The notes under the pieces: model-generated
The model's database searches: none
Told to the model about the DNA's origin: nothing
Seen by the model: the letters and a program-made list of their open reading frames with translations, nothing else
In this document: piece by piece, positions 26,090-35,149 of the stretch
Layout of the letters: every line of letters starts with the position of its first letter
Position numbering within the stretch: position 1 is the stretch's first letter
Program-made: the position numbers and the translations under genes
Assembly: GCF_004328625.1 (NCBI RefSeq)
Contig: NZ_CP032229.1
Location: 1,736,001-1,800,000 of the forward strand
Direction of reading: 5' to 3'
DNA length: 64,000 bases
Source: Streptomyces seoulensis
GTDB lineage: Bacteria > Actinomycetota > Actinomycetes > Streptomycetales > Streptomycetaceae

Positions 26090-27160
26090 CTAGTCGCAGC
26101 AGTCGGGGTCCAGGCCGCGGGGCAGGAGTTCGCCGCCGAAGACGGCGCCGGTCGCGTCGTGGCCGCCGAGGGCGGCGACCGCGAGCAGCAGGGAGCCTGC
26201 GGTCCAGCTGGTCAGTTCCTGGGGCCAGACGGCGTCGTCGTCGAAGACGTAGCCGGTCCAGTAGAGGCCGGAGGCGTCGTCGCGCAGGTGCTGGATGGAC
26301 TGGAGGATCTCCAGGGCGCGGTCGGACTCGCCCATCGCCCAGAGGGCCAGGGCGAGTTCGCAGGACTCGCCGCCGGTCACCCAGGGGTTGGGCACGACGC
26401 AGCGCACGCCCAGGCCGGGTACGACGAAGCGGTCCCAGTCGGCCTCGACACGCTCCTTGGCCTCGGCTCCGCTGACGGCTCCGCCGAGCACCGGGTAGTA
26501 CCAGTCCATGGAGTACTGGTTCTTGTCGAGGAACCGCTCGGGGTGCCTGCGGATCGCGTGCCGCAGCGCGCCCACCGCCAACTCCCAGTCGGGCTGCGGT
26601 TCTTCACGCTGGTCGGCGATGGCGAGCGCACAGCGCAGGGCGTGGTGGACCGACGAGCTTCCGGTGAGCAGGGCGTCGGCGGTGGGAGTGCCGTCCTCCG
26701 CGCGCCGCCAGCCGATCTGGCCGCCGGGCTGCTGGAGCCGGAGCACCCATTCCACGGCCGCGTACACGGTGGGCCACATCCGGTCCAGGAACGTGTCGTC
26801 CCCGGTGGACAGGTAGTGGTGCCAGACGCCGACGGCTATGTAGGCGACGAAGTTGGACTCGCGGGCGCGGTCGGTGACGTCGTCGTGGGCACCGTCGGCG
26901 TAGGCGGCGTACCAGGAGCCGTCCTCGTTCTGGTGGTCGGCGAGCCAGCGGTAGGCGCGCTCGGCGGCCGCGTGCTCCCCGGCCGCGTCGAGGGCCATGG
27001 CGGCCTCGGTGTGGTCCCAGGGGTCGAGGTGGTGGCCGCGGAACCAGGGGATCGCGCCGTCGGCGCGCTGCACCGCGAGGATGCCCCGGACGGTGTCGGC
27101 GGCCTGCTCGGCGGTGAGGACCCCGGTCAGGACGAGGTGGTCGGTCCGGGGCGTGCTCAC
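26090..27160 (-). CDS. Alpha/alpha-toroid protein annotated as prenyltransferase-like
   Basis: A 356-residue soluble protein built from helical pairs with regularly spaced aromatic motifs (GAIPWFRGHHLDPWDHTEAA, ADHQNEDGSWYAAY, QQPGGQIGWRR, ELTSWTAGSLLLAVAALGG). This is the prenyltransferase/squalene-oxidase-repeat or six-hairpin glycosidase-like toroid. No QW/DxDD terpene cyclase motif is present, so prenyl transfer is doubtful; carbohydrate binding or hydrolysis fits the company better. The protein ends in DCCD. GTG 27160 overlaps the methyltransferase stop by 4 nt. It is the last gene of the minus-strand operon glycosyltransferase-methyltransferase-toroid. Confidence 0.8.
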   Translation of the reverse strand: MSTPRTDHLVLTGVLTAEQAADTVRGILAVQRADGAIPWFRGHHLDPWDHTEAAMALDAAGEHAAAERAYRWLADHQNEDGSWYAAYADGAHDDVTDRARESNFVAYIAVGVWHHYLSTGDDTFLDRMWPTVYAAVEWVLRLQQPGGQIGWRRAEDGTPTADALLTGSSSVHHALRCALAIADQREEPQPDWELAVGALRHAIRRHPERFLDKNQYSMDWYYPVLGGAVSGAEAKERVEADWDRFVVPGLGVRCVVPNPWVTGGESCELALALWAMGESDRALEILQSIQHLRDDASGLYWTGYVFDDDAVWPQELTSWTAGSLLLAVAALGGHDATGAVFGGELLPRGLDPDCCD

Positions 27161-29484: not shown

Positions 29485-29610
29485 CGGCCCCCGGTAAAGT
29501 GGCCGGGTCGTCATACACCCGTACGGGGGGAAGCCGGTGCGATTCCGGCGCTGACCCGCAACCGTCATCCGGCGCCCCTGGGCCCGGTGAGCCGGAACGC
29601 CCCGACGGGA
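29485..29610 (+). promoter_or_regulatory. Cobalamin riboswitch
   Basis: Conserved aptamer elements are present on the plus strand: GGGGGGAAGCCGGTGCGATT (29525-29544) followed by CCGGCGCTGACCCGCAACCGT (the B12 box region, to about 29565) and the closing GGTGAGCCGGAACGCC (29586-29601). It lies 120-240 nt upstream of the toroid gene and so controls the ECF operon. The ends are approximate. Binding of adenosylcobalamin would be expected to repress the operon. Confidence 0.93.
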
Positions 29611-29624
29611 GGTTGACCGGCCAA

Positions 29625-29649
29625 CGTGCGGGGCGCTCGGCCCCGCACG
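29625..29649 (+). terminator. Expression-platform hairpin of the cobalamin riboswitch
   Basis: Stem cgtgcgggg (29625-29633) pairs with ccccgcacg (29641-29649) around a 7-nt loop. It stands between the aptamer and the ribosome-binding site (AGGAGAGG, 29711-29718) and may be the regulated terminator or a processing hairpin. Confidence 0.55.
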
Positions 29650-29730
29650 GCACCGTCGAGGCATACGGGGCCGGGCCGCCGGGGTGGTCCCCGCGCGCGT
29701 CGGCCCTCGCAGGAGAGGCAGTCGCCGACC

Positions 29731-30933
29731 ATGAACGTCCGCCGCAGTGCCGCGGCTCTCGCCGCCATAGGCGTGCTGGCAGCAGCCGCGCCCGCCACGG
29801 CCGCCCCGTCCCCGAAGGCGACGGTCCCGGCCGGGCTGTTCGGCAAGGGCGACCCCACCTACGACGGCGTCTGGCGCCAGTCCCTCGCCCTGCTCGCGCA
29901 GCACACCGCCGGTGAGAAGCCCGCGGACCAGGCGGTGACGTGGCTGACCGGCCAGCAGTGCGCCGACGGCGGCTTCGCCGCCTTCCGCGCCGACACCAGC
30001 AAGCCGTGCGGCGGCAAGGGCGCGCAGGCGGACACCAACAGCACGGCCGCCGCCGTCCAGTCGCTCGCCGCGCTCGGCGGGCACGACGACGTGACCGGCA
30101 AGGCCGTCACCTGGCTGAAGGCCCAGCAGAACAAGGACGGCGGCTGGGGCTACTCCCCCGGCGGCCCGAGCGACACCAACTCCACCTCCGTCGTGGTGGG
30201 CGCGCTGGCCGCCGCCGGTGAGAAGCCGGCCGAACTGCGGGGCAAGGGCAGGACCCCCGACGAGGCGCTGGCCTCGCTCGCGGTGCCCTGCGACCAGAAG
30301 GGCGGCGGCGCCCTCGCCTTCCAGCCGGACAAGAAGGGCAAGCTGGAGGCCAACGCGGACGCCACGGCCGCCGGTGTGCTCGGCGCCCTCGGCAAGGGCT
30401 TCGTGGTGGAGCCCGGCAAGGCCCGCGACAAGGCCCCCGCCTGCGCCTCCGACGGCAAGGCGACCCCGGCCCGCCTGGCCGACAACGCCTCCGCGTATCT
30501 CCTCGGCGCCGTCGCCGAGTCCGGCCACCTGATGTCCGCGATGCCCGGCGCCGAGAACCAGCCCGACTTCGGCAACACCGCCGACACCGTGGTGGCGCTG
30601 GCCGCCGACGGCTGGACCGAGCAGGCGAAGAAGCCGTACGCCTGGCTGGAGAAGAACGCCGCGAAGTGGGCTCAGCAGAGCGGCCCGGCCGCCTACGCCC
30701 AGCTGATCCTGAGCGCGCACGCGGTCGGCGCCGACCCGCACGACTTCGGCGGGACCGACCTGGTCAGCGCCCTGGACAAGCTGGGCCCGGCCCCGGCGAA
30801 GCAGGCCGCCGCACCGGAGAAGAAGACCACCGAGAAGTCCGGCAACAGCGTGTGGTGGATCATCGGCGTGGGTCTGGTCGCCGGTATCGGCATCGGCTTC
30901 CTGTTCAGCGGCCGGAAGAAGAACCGCCCGTGA
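29731..30933 (+). CDS. Surface-anchored alpha/alpha-toroid protein, intrinsic-factor-like; candidate B12-binding component
   Basis: A 400-residue exported protein. A signal peptide (AAALAAIGVLAAAAPATAAP) is followed by prenyltransferase/squalene-oxidase-like repeats: TWLTGQQCADGGFAAF, TNSTAAAVQSLAALGGH, TWLKAQQNKDGGWGYSPG, TNSTSVVVGALAAAG. This toroid is the fold of the intrinsic factor and transcobalamin alpha domain. A C-terminal helix (WWIIGVGLVAGIGIGFLF) and a basic tail KKNRP anchor it. As first gene behind a cobalamin riboswitch and before a full ECF transporter it is a good candidate for capturing cobalamin at the cell surface. Binding itself is inference. The enzyme annotation prenyltransferase is not supported by the context. 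Confidence 0.85.
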   Translation: MNVRRSAAALAAIGVLAAAAPATAAPSPKATVPAGLFGKGDPTYDGVWRQSLALLAQHTAGEKPADQAVTWLTGQQCADGGFAAFRADTSKPCGGKGAQADTNSTAAAVQSLAALGGHDDVTGKAVTWLKAQQNKDGGWGYSPGGPSDTNSTSVVVGALAAAGEKPAELRGKGRTPDEALASLAVPCDQKGGGALAFQPDKKGKLEANADATAAGVLGALGKGFVVEPGKARDKAPACASDGKATPARLADNASAYLLGAVAESGHLMSAMPGAENQPDFGNTADTVVALAADGWTEQAKKPYAWLEKNAAKWAQQSGPAAYAQLILSAHAVGADPHDFGGTDLVSALDKLGPAPAKQAAAPEKKTTEKSGNSVWWIIGVGLVAGIGIGFLFSGRKKNRP

Positions 30934-31565
30934 CCTCGGTCCGCCGTGCCGCGGCCCTGCTGGTCGCGTCCCTCCTCGTGCTGGCCGCCGGCGCGGAGGC
31001 GCACGCCGCCGGATACCGGTACTGGTCCTTCTGGGACCGCTCCGGCGACCGGTGGACGTACGCCACCCAGGGGCCGGCCTCCGAGCGTCCCGACGACGGC
31101 TCGGTGCGGGGCTTCCGGTTCGCGGTCAGCGCGGACTCCTCGGACGCGAACCGGCCGCGCGGCACGGCGGACTTCGGCTCGGTCTGCGCGAAGACACCCG
31201 CGAAGGCGGGCACCAAGCGGGTCGCGCTCGTCCTGGACTTCGGCACCGAGGCCGACGCACCCTCCGGGGAGACCCCGCCGCCCACGCGTACGGTCTGCGC
31301 CCGCGTCTCCCCCGACGCGAGCACCGCCGAGGCGCTGGCCGAGGCCGCGAAGCCGCTGCGCTACGACACCAACGCCCTGCTGTGCGCCATCGCCGGTTAT
31401 CCGGCGCGGGGCTGCGGGGAGCAGGTGGCGGCCGACGAGAAGCCCGCCGGAAAGGCCGCCCCCAAGGACGACGGCCCCTCCCTCGGTCTCCCCCTCGGCA
31501 TCGGTGTGGTCGCCGTGCTCGGCGGGGCGGCGTTCTGGCAGGCGCGGCGGCGCCGGAATGCCTGA
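30930..31565 (+). CDS. SCO2322-family secreted membrane-anchored protein
   Basis: A 211-residue protein: signal peptide ending AEAHAAG, an extracytoplasmic domain with paired cysteines (FGSVCAKTP, RTVCARVSP, ALLCAIAGYPARGCGE), and a C-terminal helix (LGLPLGIGVVAVLGGAAFW) plus basic tail (RRRR). This matches the SCO2322 family known from B12-riboswitch operons of Streptomyces. Function unknown; it may pair with the toroid protein or receive its ligand for the transporter. The start GTG overlaps the previous stop by 4 nt (GTGA), so translation is coupled. Confidence 0.85.
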   Translation: MTSVRRAAALLVASLLVLAAGAEAHAAGYRYWSFWDRSGDRWTYATQGPASERPDDGSVRGFRFAVSADSSDANRPRGTADFGSVCAKTPAKAGTKRVALVLDFGTEADAPSGETPPPTRTVCARVSPDASTAEALAEAAKPLRYDTNALLCAIAGYPARGCGEQVAADEKPAGKAAPKDDGPSLGLPLGIGVVAVLGGAAFWQARRRRNA

Positions 31566-32682
31566 CACCGGCGTACGCGCCGCCCGTACCACCGTGCCCG
31601 TCCGCAGGCGGGCGCGCTTCGAACTGCACCCCGGCGCCTGGTGGTTGTGGTCGCTGGGGCTCGGCACGGCCGCCACCCGCACCACCAACCCGCTGCTGCT
31701 CGCCCTGCTGATGGCGGTGGCGGGCTATGTGGTGGCCGTCCACCGCTCCAGCGCGCCGTGGGCCCGCTCGTACACGGCGTTCGCCAAGCTGGCCGTCGCC
31801 GTGCTGCTGATCCGGCTGGCGTTCACGGCCGTCCTCGGCTCGCCGGTGCCGGGGACGCATGTGCTGTTCACGCTGCCCGAGATCCCGCTGCCCGCCTGGG
31901 CGCAGGGCATCCGGCTGGGCGGCCCGGTGTCGGCGGAGGCGCTGCTGTTCTCCGGCTACAACGGCCTGAAACTGGCGGCCCTGCTGGTCTGTGTCGGCGC
32001 CGCGAACGCCCTGGCCAGCCCGGCCAAGCTGCTCAAGTCGCTGCCGGGCGCGCTGTACGAGGCGGGGGTGGCGGTGGTGGTCGCGCTGACCTTCGCCCCG
32101 CATCTCATCGCCGACGTGCAGCGGCTGCGCGCCGCCCGCCGTCTCAGGGGGCGCCCGGACCGGGGGGTGCGGGGGCTGTTCCAGGTCGGACTGCCGGTGC
32201 TGGAGGGCGCGTTGGAGCGCTCGGTCGCGCTGGCCGCCGCGATGGACGCCCGCGGCTACGGCCGTACCGCCGAGGTGCCCGCGCCGGTGCGCCGGACGAC
32301 CTCCGCGCTCACCCTGGGCGGGCTGCTCGGGGTGTGCGCGGGCACGTACGGGCTGCTCACCGCCGAGGGCGGGGTGTACGGCATGCCGGTGCTGGCCGCC
32401 GGGGCGCTGGCCGCGCTCGCCGGGCTGCGCCTGGGCGGCCGGCGTTCGGCGCGCACCCGGTACCGGCCGGCGCCCTGGGGGGTGCGGGCGTGGCTGGTGG
32501 CGGGGTCGGGCGGGGCCGTCGCCGCGCTGCTCGCGCTGGCCTCCGTGCGCGATTCGGGCGCGCTGCATCCCGGTGTCGTCCCGCTGGCCGCGCCCGCGCT
32601 GCCGCTGTGGCCGGCCGCCACCATCCTGCTGGGCCTGCTGCCCGTGCTCGTCGTACCCCAGGACCGCAAGGAGCCGTCGTGA
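31558..32682 (+). CDS. ECF transporter T component (EcfT/CbiQ family)
   Basis: A 374-residue integral membrane protein with about eight hydrophobic segments. The cytoplasmic coupling segment contains the Ala-Arg-Gly type motifs RAARRLRGRP and AAMDARGYGR (about residues 195-235), which bind the ATPase pair. It links the substrate-binding S protein to ATP hydrolysis. The ATG at 31558 overlaps the previous gene by 8 nt, and its stop overlaps the ATPase GTG by 4 nt. Part of the B12-riboswitch operon, so cobalamin or a precursor is the predicted cargo. Confidence 0.92.
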   Translation: MPDTGVRAARTTVPVRRRARFELHPGAWWLWSLGLGTAATRTTNPLLLALLMAVAGYVVAVHRSSAPWARSYTAFAKLAVAVLLIRLAFTAVLGSPVPGTHVLFTLPEIPLPAWAQGIRLGGPVSAEALLFSGYNGLKLAALLVCVGAANALASPAKLLKSLPGALYEAGVAVVVALTFAPHLIADVQRLRAARRLRGRPDRGVRGLFQVGLPVLEGALERSVALAAAMDARGYGRTAEVPAPVRRTTSALTLGGLLGVCAGTYGLLTAEGGVYGMPVLAAGALAALAGLRLGGRRSARTRYRPAPWGVRAWLVAGSGGAVAALLALASVRDSGALHPGVVPLAAPALPLWPAATILLGLLPVLVVPQDRKEPS

Positions 32683-34331
32683 TCCGCTTCGAGGACGTCG
32701 CCGTCACCTACGACGGGGCGGCCGAACCGACCGTCCGGGGCGTGGACTTCGAGGTGCCCGAGGGTGAACTCGTGCTGCTCGTCGGCCCGTCGGGGGTGGG
32801 CAAGTCGACGATCCTGAACGCGGTCAGCGGACTGGTCCCGCACTTCACCGGGGGCACCCTGCGCGGCCGGGTCACGGTGGCGGGCCGGGACACCCGCACC
32901 CACAAGCCGCGCGAACTGGCCGACGTGGTCGGCACGGTGGGCCAGGACCCGCTCGCACACTTCGTGACGGACACCGTGGAGGACGAACTCGCCTACGGCA
33001 TGGAGTCGTTGGGTCTTGCTCCGGAGGTGATGCGGCGCCGGGTGGAGGAGACGCTCGACCTGCTGGGCCTCGCCGATCTGCGGGACCGTTCCATCGGCAC
33101 CCTGTCCGGCGGCCAGCGCCAGCGGGTCGCCATCGGCTCGGTGCTCACTCCGCACCCCCGCGTGCTGGTCCTGGACGAGCCGACCTCGGCGCTGGACCCG
33201 GCGGCGGCGGAGGAGGTCCTCGCGGTGCTGCAACGCCTGGTGCACGACCTGGGCACCACGGTCCTGATGGCGGAGCACCGGCTGGAGCGGGTCGTCCAGT
33301 ACGCCGACCAGGTCGTGCTGCTGCCCGCGCCCGGCGCCGCGCCAGTGCTCGGTGCTCCTGCCGAGATGATGGCCGTCTCCCCGGTGATCCCGCCGGTGGT
33401 CGAGCTGGGCCGGCTGGCCGGCTGGAGCCCGCTGCCGCTGACCGTCCGGGACGCGCGACGGCAGGCGGGGGCGCTGCGGGAGAGCCTGGCCGGTCTCGAA
33501 AGAGAGGCCCATGATCTCCCCCGGACCACCGTCCCACCGCCCCGCCGCCGTTTCCGCCGCGCGCCCGCCCCCGCCGAGCCGCAGGTGGCCGAGGTCCGGG
33601 ACCTCGCCGTACGCCGGGGCCGGGTCGACGCGCTGCGCGGTGTGGACCTCACCGTCGCCCCCGGCGAGACCGTCGCCCTCATGGGCCGCAACGGCGCCGG
33701 GAAGTCCACCCTGCTCGGCTCCCTGGTCGGGCTCGTCGCGCCCACCTCCGGCTCCGTCCAGGTCGGCGGCGCCGCCCCGCACCGTCTGAAGCCCGCCGAA
33801 CTGGTCCGCCGGGTCGGCCTGGTGCCGCAGGAACCGCGCGATCTGCTGTACGCCGACACGGTGGGCGCCGAGTGCGTCGCCGCCGACCAGGACGCGGACG
33901 CCACCCCCGGCACGTGCCGGGCCCTGGTGTCGGAGCTGCTGCCGGGCATCACCGACGACACCCACCCCCGCGACCTCTCCGAGGGCCAGCGCCTCGCCCT
34001 CGCGCTCGCCGTCGTCCTGACCGCCCGCCCCCCGCTGCTCCTGCTGGACGAGCCGACTCGCGGCCTGGACTACGCGGCCAAGTCCCGCCTGGTCGCCGTG
34101 CTGCGCGGGCTGGCGGCCGAGGGGCATGCCCTGGTGCTGGCCACGCACGACGTGGAGCTGGCCGCCGAGATCGCGCACCGGGTGGTGCTGCTGGCGGACG
34201 GCGAGGTGATAGCCGACGGCGCCACGGCCGACATCGTGGTGTCCTCCCCCTCCTTCGCGCCCCAGGTCACCAAGATCCTGGCTCCGCAGCCCTGGCTGAC
34301 GGTGTCCGAGGTACGGAGGGCGCTGGCATGA
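32679..34331 (+). CDS. ECF transporter fused double ATPase (A-A')
   Basis: A 550-residue protein with two ABC ATPase domains in tandem, replacing separate EcfA and EcfA'. First domain: Walker A GPSGVGKST (about residues 36-44), signature LSGGQ, Walker B VLVLDEPTSALD. Second domain: Walker A GRNGAGKST, degenerate signature LSEGQ, Walker B LLLLDEPTRGLD. The interdomain segment (about 215-305) is Pro/Arg-rich. The uneven signature motifs suggest asymmetric ATP sites. GTG start overlaps the T-component stop (GTGA). Confidence 0.95.
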   Translation: MIRFEDVAVTYDGAAEPTVRGVDFEVPEGELVLLVGPSGVGKSTILNAVSGLVPHFTGGTLRGRVTVAGRDTRTHKPRELADVVGTVGQDPLAHFVTDTVEDELAYGMESLGLAPEVMRRRVEETLDLLGLADLRDRSIGTLSGGQRQRVAIGSVLTPHPRVLVLDEPTSALDPAAAEEVLAVLQRLVHDLGTTVLMAEHRLERVVQYADQVVLLPAPGAAPVLGAPAEMMAVSPVIPPVVELGRLAGWSPLPLTVRDARRQAGALRESLAGLEREAHDLPRTTVPPPRRRFRRAPAPAEPQVAEVRDLAVRRGRVDALRGVDLTVAPGETVALMGRNGAGKSTLLGSLVGLVAPTSGSVQVGGAAPHRLKPAELVRRVGLVPQEPRDLLYADTVGAECVAADQDADATPGTCRALVSELLPGITDDTHPRDLSEGQRLALALAVVLTARPPLLLLDEPTRGLDYAAKSRLVAVLRGLAAEGHALVLATHDVELAAEIAHRVVLLADGEVIADGATADIVVSSPSFAPQVTKILAPQPWLTVSEVRRALA

Positions 34332-35149
34332 GCCGTACCGCTGTCCGGGCCGTCCGGCTCGGCCCCCGTTCCGTCGCCGCGCTCGTGCTGGTCGGCGCGG
34401 TGGGGGTGGCCGCGTTCGGGTGGCCGTTCCTCGCGCCGCCGGACTCGGGGGTCGGCGCGCACGCCGAGGACGCGCCCTGGCTGTTCGCGGGGCTGCTGGT
34501 GCTGCTGGTCGCGGTGGTGGCGGCGACCATCTCGGAGTCGGGGCTCGGCCCCAAGGCCGTCGCCATGCTGGGGGTGCTCGCGGCGACGGGCGCGGCCCTG
34601 CGGCCGATCGGCGCGGGGACGGCGGGCATCGAGCCGATGTTCTTCCTGCTGGTGCTCAGCGGGCGGGTGCTCGGGCCCGGCTTCGGCTTCGTGCTGGGCT
34701 CGGTGACGATGTTCGCGTCCGCGCTGCTGACCGGCGGGGTCGGGCCGTGGATGCCGTTCCAGATGCTGGCGATGGGCTGGTTCACCATGGGCGCGGGCCT
34801 GCTGCCGGGCGCCGCCCGCCTGCGCGGCAGGGGCGAGCTGGCGCTGCTCGCCTGCTACGGCTTCCTCGCGGCCTTCGCCTACGGCACGCTCATGAACCTG
34901 GCGGGGTGGCCGTTCATGGGCACCATGGCCTCGAACATCTCCTTCGACCCGCACGCCGCCGTCCCCGCCAACCTGGCCCGCTTCCTCGCCTACTGCCTGG
35001 CCACCTCCATGGGCTGGGACCTGGGCCGGGCCGTCTGCACGGTCGTCCTCACCCTGGCCCTCGGCCCGGCCGTGCTGCGCGCCCTGCGCCGGGCCACCCG
35101 CCGGGCCGCCTTCGAGACGCCGGTCACCTTCGACGCCCCCGGCGCGTGA
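34328..35149 (+). CDS. ECF transporter S component, predicted cobalamin or precursor binding (CbrT-like)
   Basis: A 273-residue membrane protein with six or more hydrophobic helices, including FGFVLGSVTMFASALLTGG and PWMPFQMLAMGWFTMGAG, as in S components of the CbrT type. The S component determines the cargo. The cobalamin riboswitch upstream makes cobalamin, cobinamide or another corrinoid the most likely substrate. The ATG overlaps the ATPase stop by 4 nt (ATGA). Last gene of the operon; it is about 305 nt from the next gene. Confidence 0.9.
   Translation: MSRTAVRAVRLGPRSVAALVLVGAVGVAAFGWPFLAPPDSGVGAHAEDAPWLFAGLLVLLVAVVAATISESGLGPKAVAMLGVLAATGAALRPIGAGTAGIEPMFFLLVLSGRVLGPGFGFVLGSVTMFASALLTGGVGPWMPFQMLAMGWFTMGAGLLPGAARLRGRGELALLACYGFLAAFAYGTLMNLAGWPFMGTMASNISFDPHAAVPANLARFLAYCLATSMGWDLGRAVCTVVLTLALGPAVLRALRRATRRAAFETPVTFDAPGA

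Follow-up and report, generated by a model that had tools for sequence, protein, structure and literature searches.

A probable corrinoid-uptake operon of Streptomyces with a circularly permuted pair of transcobalamin-like surface proteins

The stretch analysed here, called the window below, comprises 64,000 nt of Streptomyces seoulensis (NZ_CP032229.1, positions 1,736,001-1,800,000), and coordinates are given within it. It contains a cobalamin riboswitch core followed, in 5' to 3' order, by genes for a SCO2321-family toroid, a SCO2322-family protein, and the EcfT, fused EcfAA and S components of an energy-coupling factor (ECF) transporter. We interpret the five genes as a likely corrinoid uptake operon whose two surface proteins are both circularly permuted with respect to their relatives in other Actinomycetota. 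The nearest named proteins to those of the window come from S. seoulensis and S. griseoluteus. Fetched loci are numbered with an L and genomes with a G. The features are as follows.

29527..29602, + strand: cobalamin riboswitch core (RF00174 model positions 45-169; 30.6 bits, E 5.5e-06; leader conserved in Streptomyces)
29731..30933, + strand: SCO2321-family alpha/alpha toroid (NF053823 SCO2321_fam 591 bits, cut-off 300; AlphaFold2 model all-helical)
29818..30441, + strand: toroid part t1, which most relatives examined carry at the C-terminus (domain order in relatives; rotation point)
30442..30780, + strand: toroid part t2, which most relatives examined carry at the N-terminus (domain order in relatives; rotation scan)
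30930..31565, + strand: SCO2322-family anchored protein, GTG start, with a permuted beta-grasp-like domain and a C-terminal hydrophobic anchor (NF040672 SCO2322_fam 229 bits, cut-off 85)
31020..31148, + strand: first half of the SCO2322-family domain (YWSFW...GFRFAV), corresponding to the canonical C-terminal half (hhalign E 7.2e-10; BLASTP pieces)
31185..31424, + strand: second half of the SCO2322-family domain (RVALVLDF...STAEAL...CAIAGYP..C), corresponding to the canonical N-terminal half (BLASTP 45% over 82 columns against L220)
31558..32682, + strand: EcfT, CbiQ family (PF02361 30.3 bits, cut-off 25)
32679..34331, + strand: fused double ATPase EcfAA, GTG start (ABC_tran 192 bits in two stretches)
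34328..35149, + strand: ECF S component, predicted substrate a corrinoid (PF12822 29.9 bits, cut-off 30.7; terminal operon gene in relatives)

Read from the sequence, successive genes overlap by 4, 8, 4 and 4 nt. Of 80 named Streptomyces loci, 65 showed all five genes in this order in a test by the ends of open reading frames (ORFs). Three of the remaining 15 contain all five genes and failed the ORF-end test, eleven stop at most 3.4 kb past the toroid gene, and one (L046) has room for an S gene, with none detected. Among 121 Streptomyces genomes, 115 have a toroid-family match above the cut-off; for SCO2322_fam, this applies to 103 of the 296 genomes examined in the class. Together, EcfT, EcfAA and the S component are predicted to be a complete, self-contained ECF importer. 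A preliminary description of this DNA had proposed such a complete transporter, together with five genes overlapping by 4-8 nt, their family identities and control by cobalamin. ORF reading and profile scores bear out the layout and the families; EcfT and both ATPase stretches lie above their cut-offs, and the S gene is conserved as the last gene. The cobalamin control is borne out by the riboswitch core and by conservation of the leader in Streptomyces.

The leader in the window contains the RF00174 core pattern GGGAA..GGTG..TCCGG..CCCGCAAC..GAGCC.GGA. A core stem-loop was found about 200 nt 5' of the toroid gene in 79 of these 80 Streptomyces loci, L083 alone lacking it, and the Rfam cut-off for RF00174 is passed by four of nine sampled homologous Streptomyces loci. 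Across 34 aligned leaders, 6 of 23 predicted pairs show two-sided compensatory change. By this pattern of sequence conservation, the match in the window is more than chance and the riboswitch is real despite its sub-cut-off score. At least five RF00174 matches are present in the S. seoulensis genome (150 of 542 candidates scored), four above the cut-off and that of the window below it. Behind the other matches lie genes for a MetE-like protein, a CbiB-like cobalamin synthesis protein, ribonucleotide reductase alpha and a membrane protein; the CbiB-like call is above its cut-off, while the MetE-like and reductase calls come from fragments and are partly under full-length cut-offs. The membrane protein, 251 aa long, matched no family and is presumably CbtA-like. 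Nine B12 riboswitches have been described in S. coelicolor (Borovok et al. 2006, as summarised in PMC4991794).

The toroid consists of a signal peptide, the toroid itself and a C-terminal hydrophobic anchor followed by RKKNRP, so that the preliminary description was right in calling it secreted and C-terminally anchored. Its AlphaFold2 model is all-helical (predicted local distance difference test, pLDDT, 90; predicted template modelling score, pTM, 0.90) and has the alpha/alpha toroid fold, which is common to many other families and hence not diagnostic for transcobalamin or intrinsic factor. The best structural matches of the model (Foldseek, VIA-align) are squalene-hopene and other terpene cyclases. 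Neither transcobalamin nor intrinsic factor is among the best 50 of 621 Foldseek matches or the 50 VIA-align matches listed, which excludes nothing; among the listed matches of PDB sequence searches there are cyclases and prenyltransferase subunits, and again neither of the two carriers. A specific resemblance to intrinsic factor, as first proposed, finds no support among the matches listed. The accompanying remark that such toroids are mislabelled as prenyltransferases agrees with the names of the matching proteins in the source.

Conceivably, the toroid has terpene cyclase or prenyltransferase activity and its place in the operon is a coincidence. The class II terpene cyclases use the catalytic motif DVDD/DXDD, and the preliminary description had named a cyclase fold with intact catalytic residues as an outcome contrary to its proposal. 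The fold does match, but the residues do not appear intact: the DVDD of the cyclase aligns to DTNS of the toroid, in one weak local alignment. The protein is moreover secreted and anchored and has a fixed place in ECF operons. We therefore rejected the terpene cyclase, which we regard as hardly credible.

The second protein proved more informative. It gave no match in a Pfam search, and GPS-CTERM reached 27.1 against a cut-off of 28. At the same operon position, other Actinomycetota encode a domain that we call canonical. Profile and pairwise alignments identify the SCO2322-family protein as a circularly permuted relative of this domain. Same-place relatives in other genera with toroid, canonical domain, EcfT, EcfAA and S component (L216, L218, L220-L223) hold both halves in reversed order; locus L219 ends early, and no ECF genes were seen in L217. 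Swapped order also results when the SCO2322 profile is run against canonical sequences and the canonical profile against those of SCO2322 type, and a family search found the halves of the SCO2322 profile swapped within one ORF in G306, G325, G340 and G410. By BLASTP, residues 86-165 of the window protein align to positions 2-74 of the L220 segment (45% over 82 columns, E 5.9e-13, 21 subjects), and residues 31-48 to positions 79-96. Among the 79 x 21 pairs compared, all 501 with at least two BLASTP matches (E 0.01) were swapped. In an hhalign rotation scan, the score between the two profiles was 80.5 without rotation (40 columns, E 8.5e-14) and 134 with it (104 columns, E 1.3e-23), and the best score of 150 column shuffles was 20.7. 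With narrow profiles, rotation changed the result from E 3e-08 over 41 columns to E 6.7e-09 over 107. The SCO2322 family appears to have escaped domain searches because its halves stand in reverse order.

By the same kind of comparison the toroid, too, is circularly permuted relative to its homologues in other Actinomycetota. Its score increased from 280.5 over 190 columns to 398.8 over 293 of 311 columns, with an optimum near residue 238; this gain of 118 units stands without a shuffle control. Repeats, frame errors or the choice of alignment might produce apparent permutations, since the toroid is a repeat protein in which shifted registers can score, and several relatives lie on draft contigs. 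However, the beta domain is not repetitive, the swapped order occurs inside single ORFs in the four genomes just named, the swap is reciprocal with both profiles and recurs by BLASTP, 79 Streptomyces sequences agree, and the rotated toroid gains its score at near-full coverage. We thus consider an artefact very improbable. The permutation between SCO2322 and the canonical domain appears to be new, being absent from the literature searched, which lay outside subscription journals and the supplementary table of Burroughs et al.; a possible Streptomyces entry in that table limits the claim.

The canonical domain shows a profile similarity to DUF4430, the family of the C-terminal domain of transcobalamin and intrinsic factor. 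Against DUF4430, the canonical profile scores 27.5 (E 2.7e-04, 93 columns; best of 150 shuffles 22.5), the rotated SCO2322 profile 32.7 (best shuffle 21.7) and the merger of the two 34.7 (E 9.8e-06, 90 columns). The second half of SCO2322 alone reaches 27.4 (best of 200 shuffles 19.5). All these values are pairwise; they are good, short of conclusive. The low-confidence AlphaFold2 model of SCO2322 runs E E E, linker, E E H (E, strand; H, helix). This fits a rotated beta-grasp, being the series obtained when the transcobalamin-type arrangement E E H E E E is opened between strands 3 and 4. The domain is probably a divergent DUF4430/SLBB beta-grasp, an identity that is supported, short of proven. 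The preliminary description missed that this second protein is the better clue, because it is a permuted relative of a probable transcobalamin-type beta-grasp domain.

Related operons exist beyond Streptomyces. Toroid model matches were obtained in 97 of 296 Actinomycetota genomes (only 9 above cut-off) and DUF4430 matches in 51 of the 296. Among the matches listed, 33 genomes have both toroid and DUF4430, and in 28 of them the two are no more than about 6 kb apart on the same contig; the exceptions are G089, G100, G107, G132 and G133. Eleven fetched loci have the order DUF4430, (EcfT,) EcfAA, S, toroid (L170, L172, L173, L174, L176, L177, L178, L179, L180, L182, L184), and no EcfT was detected in L172. 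RF00174 was found upstream on the operon strand in seven of nine DUF4430-type loci; L173 and L178 lack one, and both stretches end about 1 kb upstream. It was also found upstream in four of nine other distant loci (L117, L126, L129, L130). Locus L129 contains a single 566-residue frame composed of a signal-like segment, toroid, canonical beta domain and C-terminal anchor, with a 49.6-bit cobalamin riboswitch on its 5' side and EcfT, EcfAA and S on its 3' side. It is the sole toroid-beta fusion among the ORFs scanned, and since it has the domain order of transcobalamin, it is the best single argument that SCO2321 and SCO2322 act as a pair.

Two further observations concern these related operons. 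In four DUF4430-type operons, the first gene after the riboswitch encodes a large, secreted-looking protein with beta-propeller repeats of the pyrroloquinoline quinone (PQQ) type (L170:10303-12951, L172:4549-7251, L176:6433-8991, L179:6253-8859). BtuG of Bacteroides, a B12-binding surface protein, is reportedly a beta-propeller as well. A second ECF system occurs in some Streptomyces (L123:2575-10134, L233); it includes a separate DUF4430 protein besides a canonical beta domain and a toroid protein of greater length, and L123 has a 91.6-bit cobalamin riboswitch next to it on the opposite strand.

Taken together, we consider it likely that the operon serves corrinoid uptake, with a split, anchored, transcobalamin-like capture pair feeding a riboswitch-controlled ECF importer. 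The toroid and the SCO2322-family protein would each contribute one half of a transcobalamin-like binder anchored in the membrane. If transcobalamin is a guide, their ligand would be a corrinoid, which toroid and beta-grasp domain would enclose on the outer side of the membrane and hand to the S protein; EcfAA would drive uptake, and B12 would shut the operon off via the riboswitch. CobN was found in the S. seoulensis genome (1362 bits), indicating that the genome carries B12-synthesis genes, so the system probably salvages corrinoids when the cell runs short. In the same genome a single substrate-binding protein of family PF01497 was found, so that a role in corrinoid import could fall to the ECF system.

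The importer could transport corrinoids under B12 control while its surface proteins do not bind them and serve as scaffold, wall-contact or assembly factors. No binding residue is identifiable, and no histidine is invariant in the toroid alignment. In addition, three loci encode SCO2322-type proteins without a toroid match nearby (L228, 7008-7967; L229, 6514-7299; L230), and L228 and L229 also have no full ECF set in the stretch fetched. These points must be set against the close linkage of toroid and DUF4430 in 28 of 33 genomes, the fusion in L129, and the fact that the two domains of transcobalamin sandwich B12 (PMC1796856). Non-binding surface proteins therefore seem rather unlikely to us, compared with a capture pair. 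An importer for cobalt or another B12 precursor also has to be considered, because EcfT belongs to the CbiQ cobalt transport family and cobalamin riboswitches also regulate cobalt transporters (PMC3766115). However, the S protein matches the vitamin-type PF12822, albeit below cut-off, no CbiM family appears in the match list, and a large binding protein would fit oddly with a metal ion as ligand. Cobalt was thus rejected as the likeliest substrate, and an importer of this kind is improbable.

A number of results weigh against corrinoid capture by a permuted transcobalamin-like pair. The S protein falls just short of the PF12822 cut-off, and a PDB profile search with it returned chance matches only, with no solved relative; the same holds for the canonical domain. 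Pfam DUF4430 matched neither SCO2322, nor four canonical homologues, nor L216 and L222. The AlphaFold2 model of SCO2322 is poor (pLDDT 69), and none of its 40 Foldseek matches at E up to 10 reached 0.001, an outcome that may be expected because the search is sequential. With narrow profiles, the second half of SCO2322 scored 18.6 against the first half of the canonical domain, and at least 5 of 200 shuffles scored higher; the diverse profiles settled the permutation where this test fell short. As to regulation, the 30.6 bits of the window's riboswitch lie under the gathering score of 31.5, so that it goes unreported at that score. No RF00174 was found at cut-off in four of the nine distant loci, and that of L123 is on the other strand. 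Finally, 15 of the 79 Streptomyces cores carry an insert in place of the CCCGCAAC-type stretch (L043, L059, L061, L064, L067, L071, L073, L077, L078, L082, L089, L101, L102, L110, L112), and the riboswitch in these loci may be dead or altered.

The insert is about 30-45 nt long and in most cases a palindrome-like CTCCCCC..CTTCGCTCG..GGGGG element; those of L067, L082 and L112 differ. Similar elements recur at other places in the Streptomyces loci fetched. A base-calling artefact was rejected as its source, given its recurrence in 15 loci and these elements elsewhere.

We also asked how the two permutations are distributed. The named Streptomyces loci (79 with SCO2322) served to build the profiles and pair a permuted beta domain with a toroid in Streptomyces order; beyond these, 29 toroid-beta pairs could be classified. 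Most of them, 21, combine a canonical beta domain with a toroid in the rotated, non-Streptomyces order (L118, L123, L124, L126, L127, L128, L129, L130 twice, L131, L133, L134, L171, L216, L217, L218, L220, L221, L222, L223, L233), and six combine a permuted beta domain with a toroid in Streptomyces order (L224, L225, L226, L227, L231, L232). A permuted beta domain with the other toroid order was found in none of the 29. Contrary to a strict coupling, L117 and L119 have a canonical beta domain and a toroid in Streptomyces order, so the two rotations are not strictly tied. In DUF4430-type loci, the toroid pieces stand in the non-Streptomyces order wherever they are readable, and we take this order as ancestral.

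A quick tree of the concatenated ECF proteins (43 rows) needs four changes for each rotation, and its well-supported branches force at least two for the permuted-beta group. On a tree of the toroid with the rotation removed (39 rows), the Streptomyces order needs four changes, at least one of them forced, and the approximately unbiased test (p 0.094) does not reject a topology that unites all 13 permuted-beta rows in one clade. The permutations may have had a single origin, may have been repeated, or may have spread by cassette transfer of the gene pair; all are compatible with the trees. The anchor is C-terminal in both types, so permutation shifts the point at which it leaves each domain. 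It is possible, though we regard it as a tentative idea that may well be wrong, that both receptor partners were re-oriented on the membrane as a pair, with a changed exit point of the anchor from each domain. Should the two domains have to face one another as well as the S component, a rotated partner would favour rotation of its counterpart. The lack of any permuted beta domain beside the other toroid order among the classified pairs speaks in favour of this idea. If true, this would be a vitamin receptor with natural, paired circular permutations in two proteins.

About 2.5 kb upstream of the operon, another frame (26159-27157, - strand) shows toroid-like helical repeats by eye. It adjoins methyltransferase-like and glycosyltransferase-like frames and is probably unrelated to the operon.

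The proposed role makes a near-universal, uncharacterised Streptomyces protein pair testable as a split, transcobalamin-like corrinoid binder. The series of fused, split, canonical and permuted forms may serve to probe how surface binders hand vitamins over to ECF transporters, and it also bears on the origin of transcobalamin-type carriers. In addition, the operon presents for study a putative receptor of two proteins in which natural circular permutation affected both partners. NCBIfam lists the two proteins as NF053823 SCO2321_fam and NF040672 SCO2322_fam, with descriptions that give no function, and Pfam lists PF28005 for the canonical relatives, a family known to us from this listing alone.

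The general form of the idea is not new. Burroughs et al. 2007 (PMC1796856) recognised the C-terminal domain of transcobalamin as a beta-grasp (SLBB) domain and reported that SLBB occurs in bacteria fused to an alpha/alpha toroid, in anchored forms and in operons beside CbiO and CbiQ, often with a second SLBB paralogue; they inferred B12 scavenging and a transfer to animals. The surface capture module feeding the S component, as the preliminary description put it, thus remains plausible without being novel. Like the systems in PMC1796856, that of S. seoulensis has a toroid and a probable transcobalamin-like domain, secreted or anchored, with a CbiO-like ATPase and a CbiQ-like protein. Those systems, as portrayed there, usually occur in bacteria without B12 synthesis and are often fused, whereas S. 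seoulensis has B12-synthesis genes and separate chains, and its domain has diverged, lacks a Pfam DUF4430 match and is circularly permuted. ECF-CbrT of Lactobacillus delbrueckii (PMC5997447) is likewise an ECF importer, proposed for cobalamin and cobinamide; in S. seoulensis, by comparison, ECF and S genes share one operon, both ATPases are joined in one chain, and two surface proteins accompany the importer. The circularly permuted beta-grasp of the ubiquitin-fold domain in eukaryotic E1 enzymes (PMC1949818) provides a precedent for a permuted beta-grasp, but its family and break point differ from those of SCO2322. With animal transcobalamin, intrinsic factor and haptocorrin, the S. seoulensis system would share a toroid and a beta-grasp partner as the binding pair, the binding being suggested here by analogy. 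The animal carriers are one secreted chain, whereas S. seoulensis has two anchored proteins, both permuted relative to the other bacterial forms.

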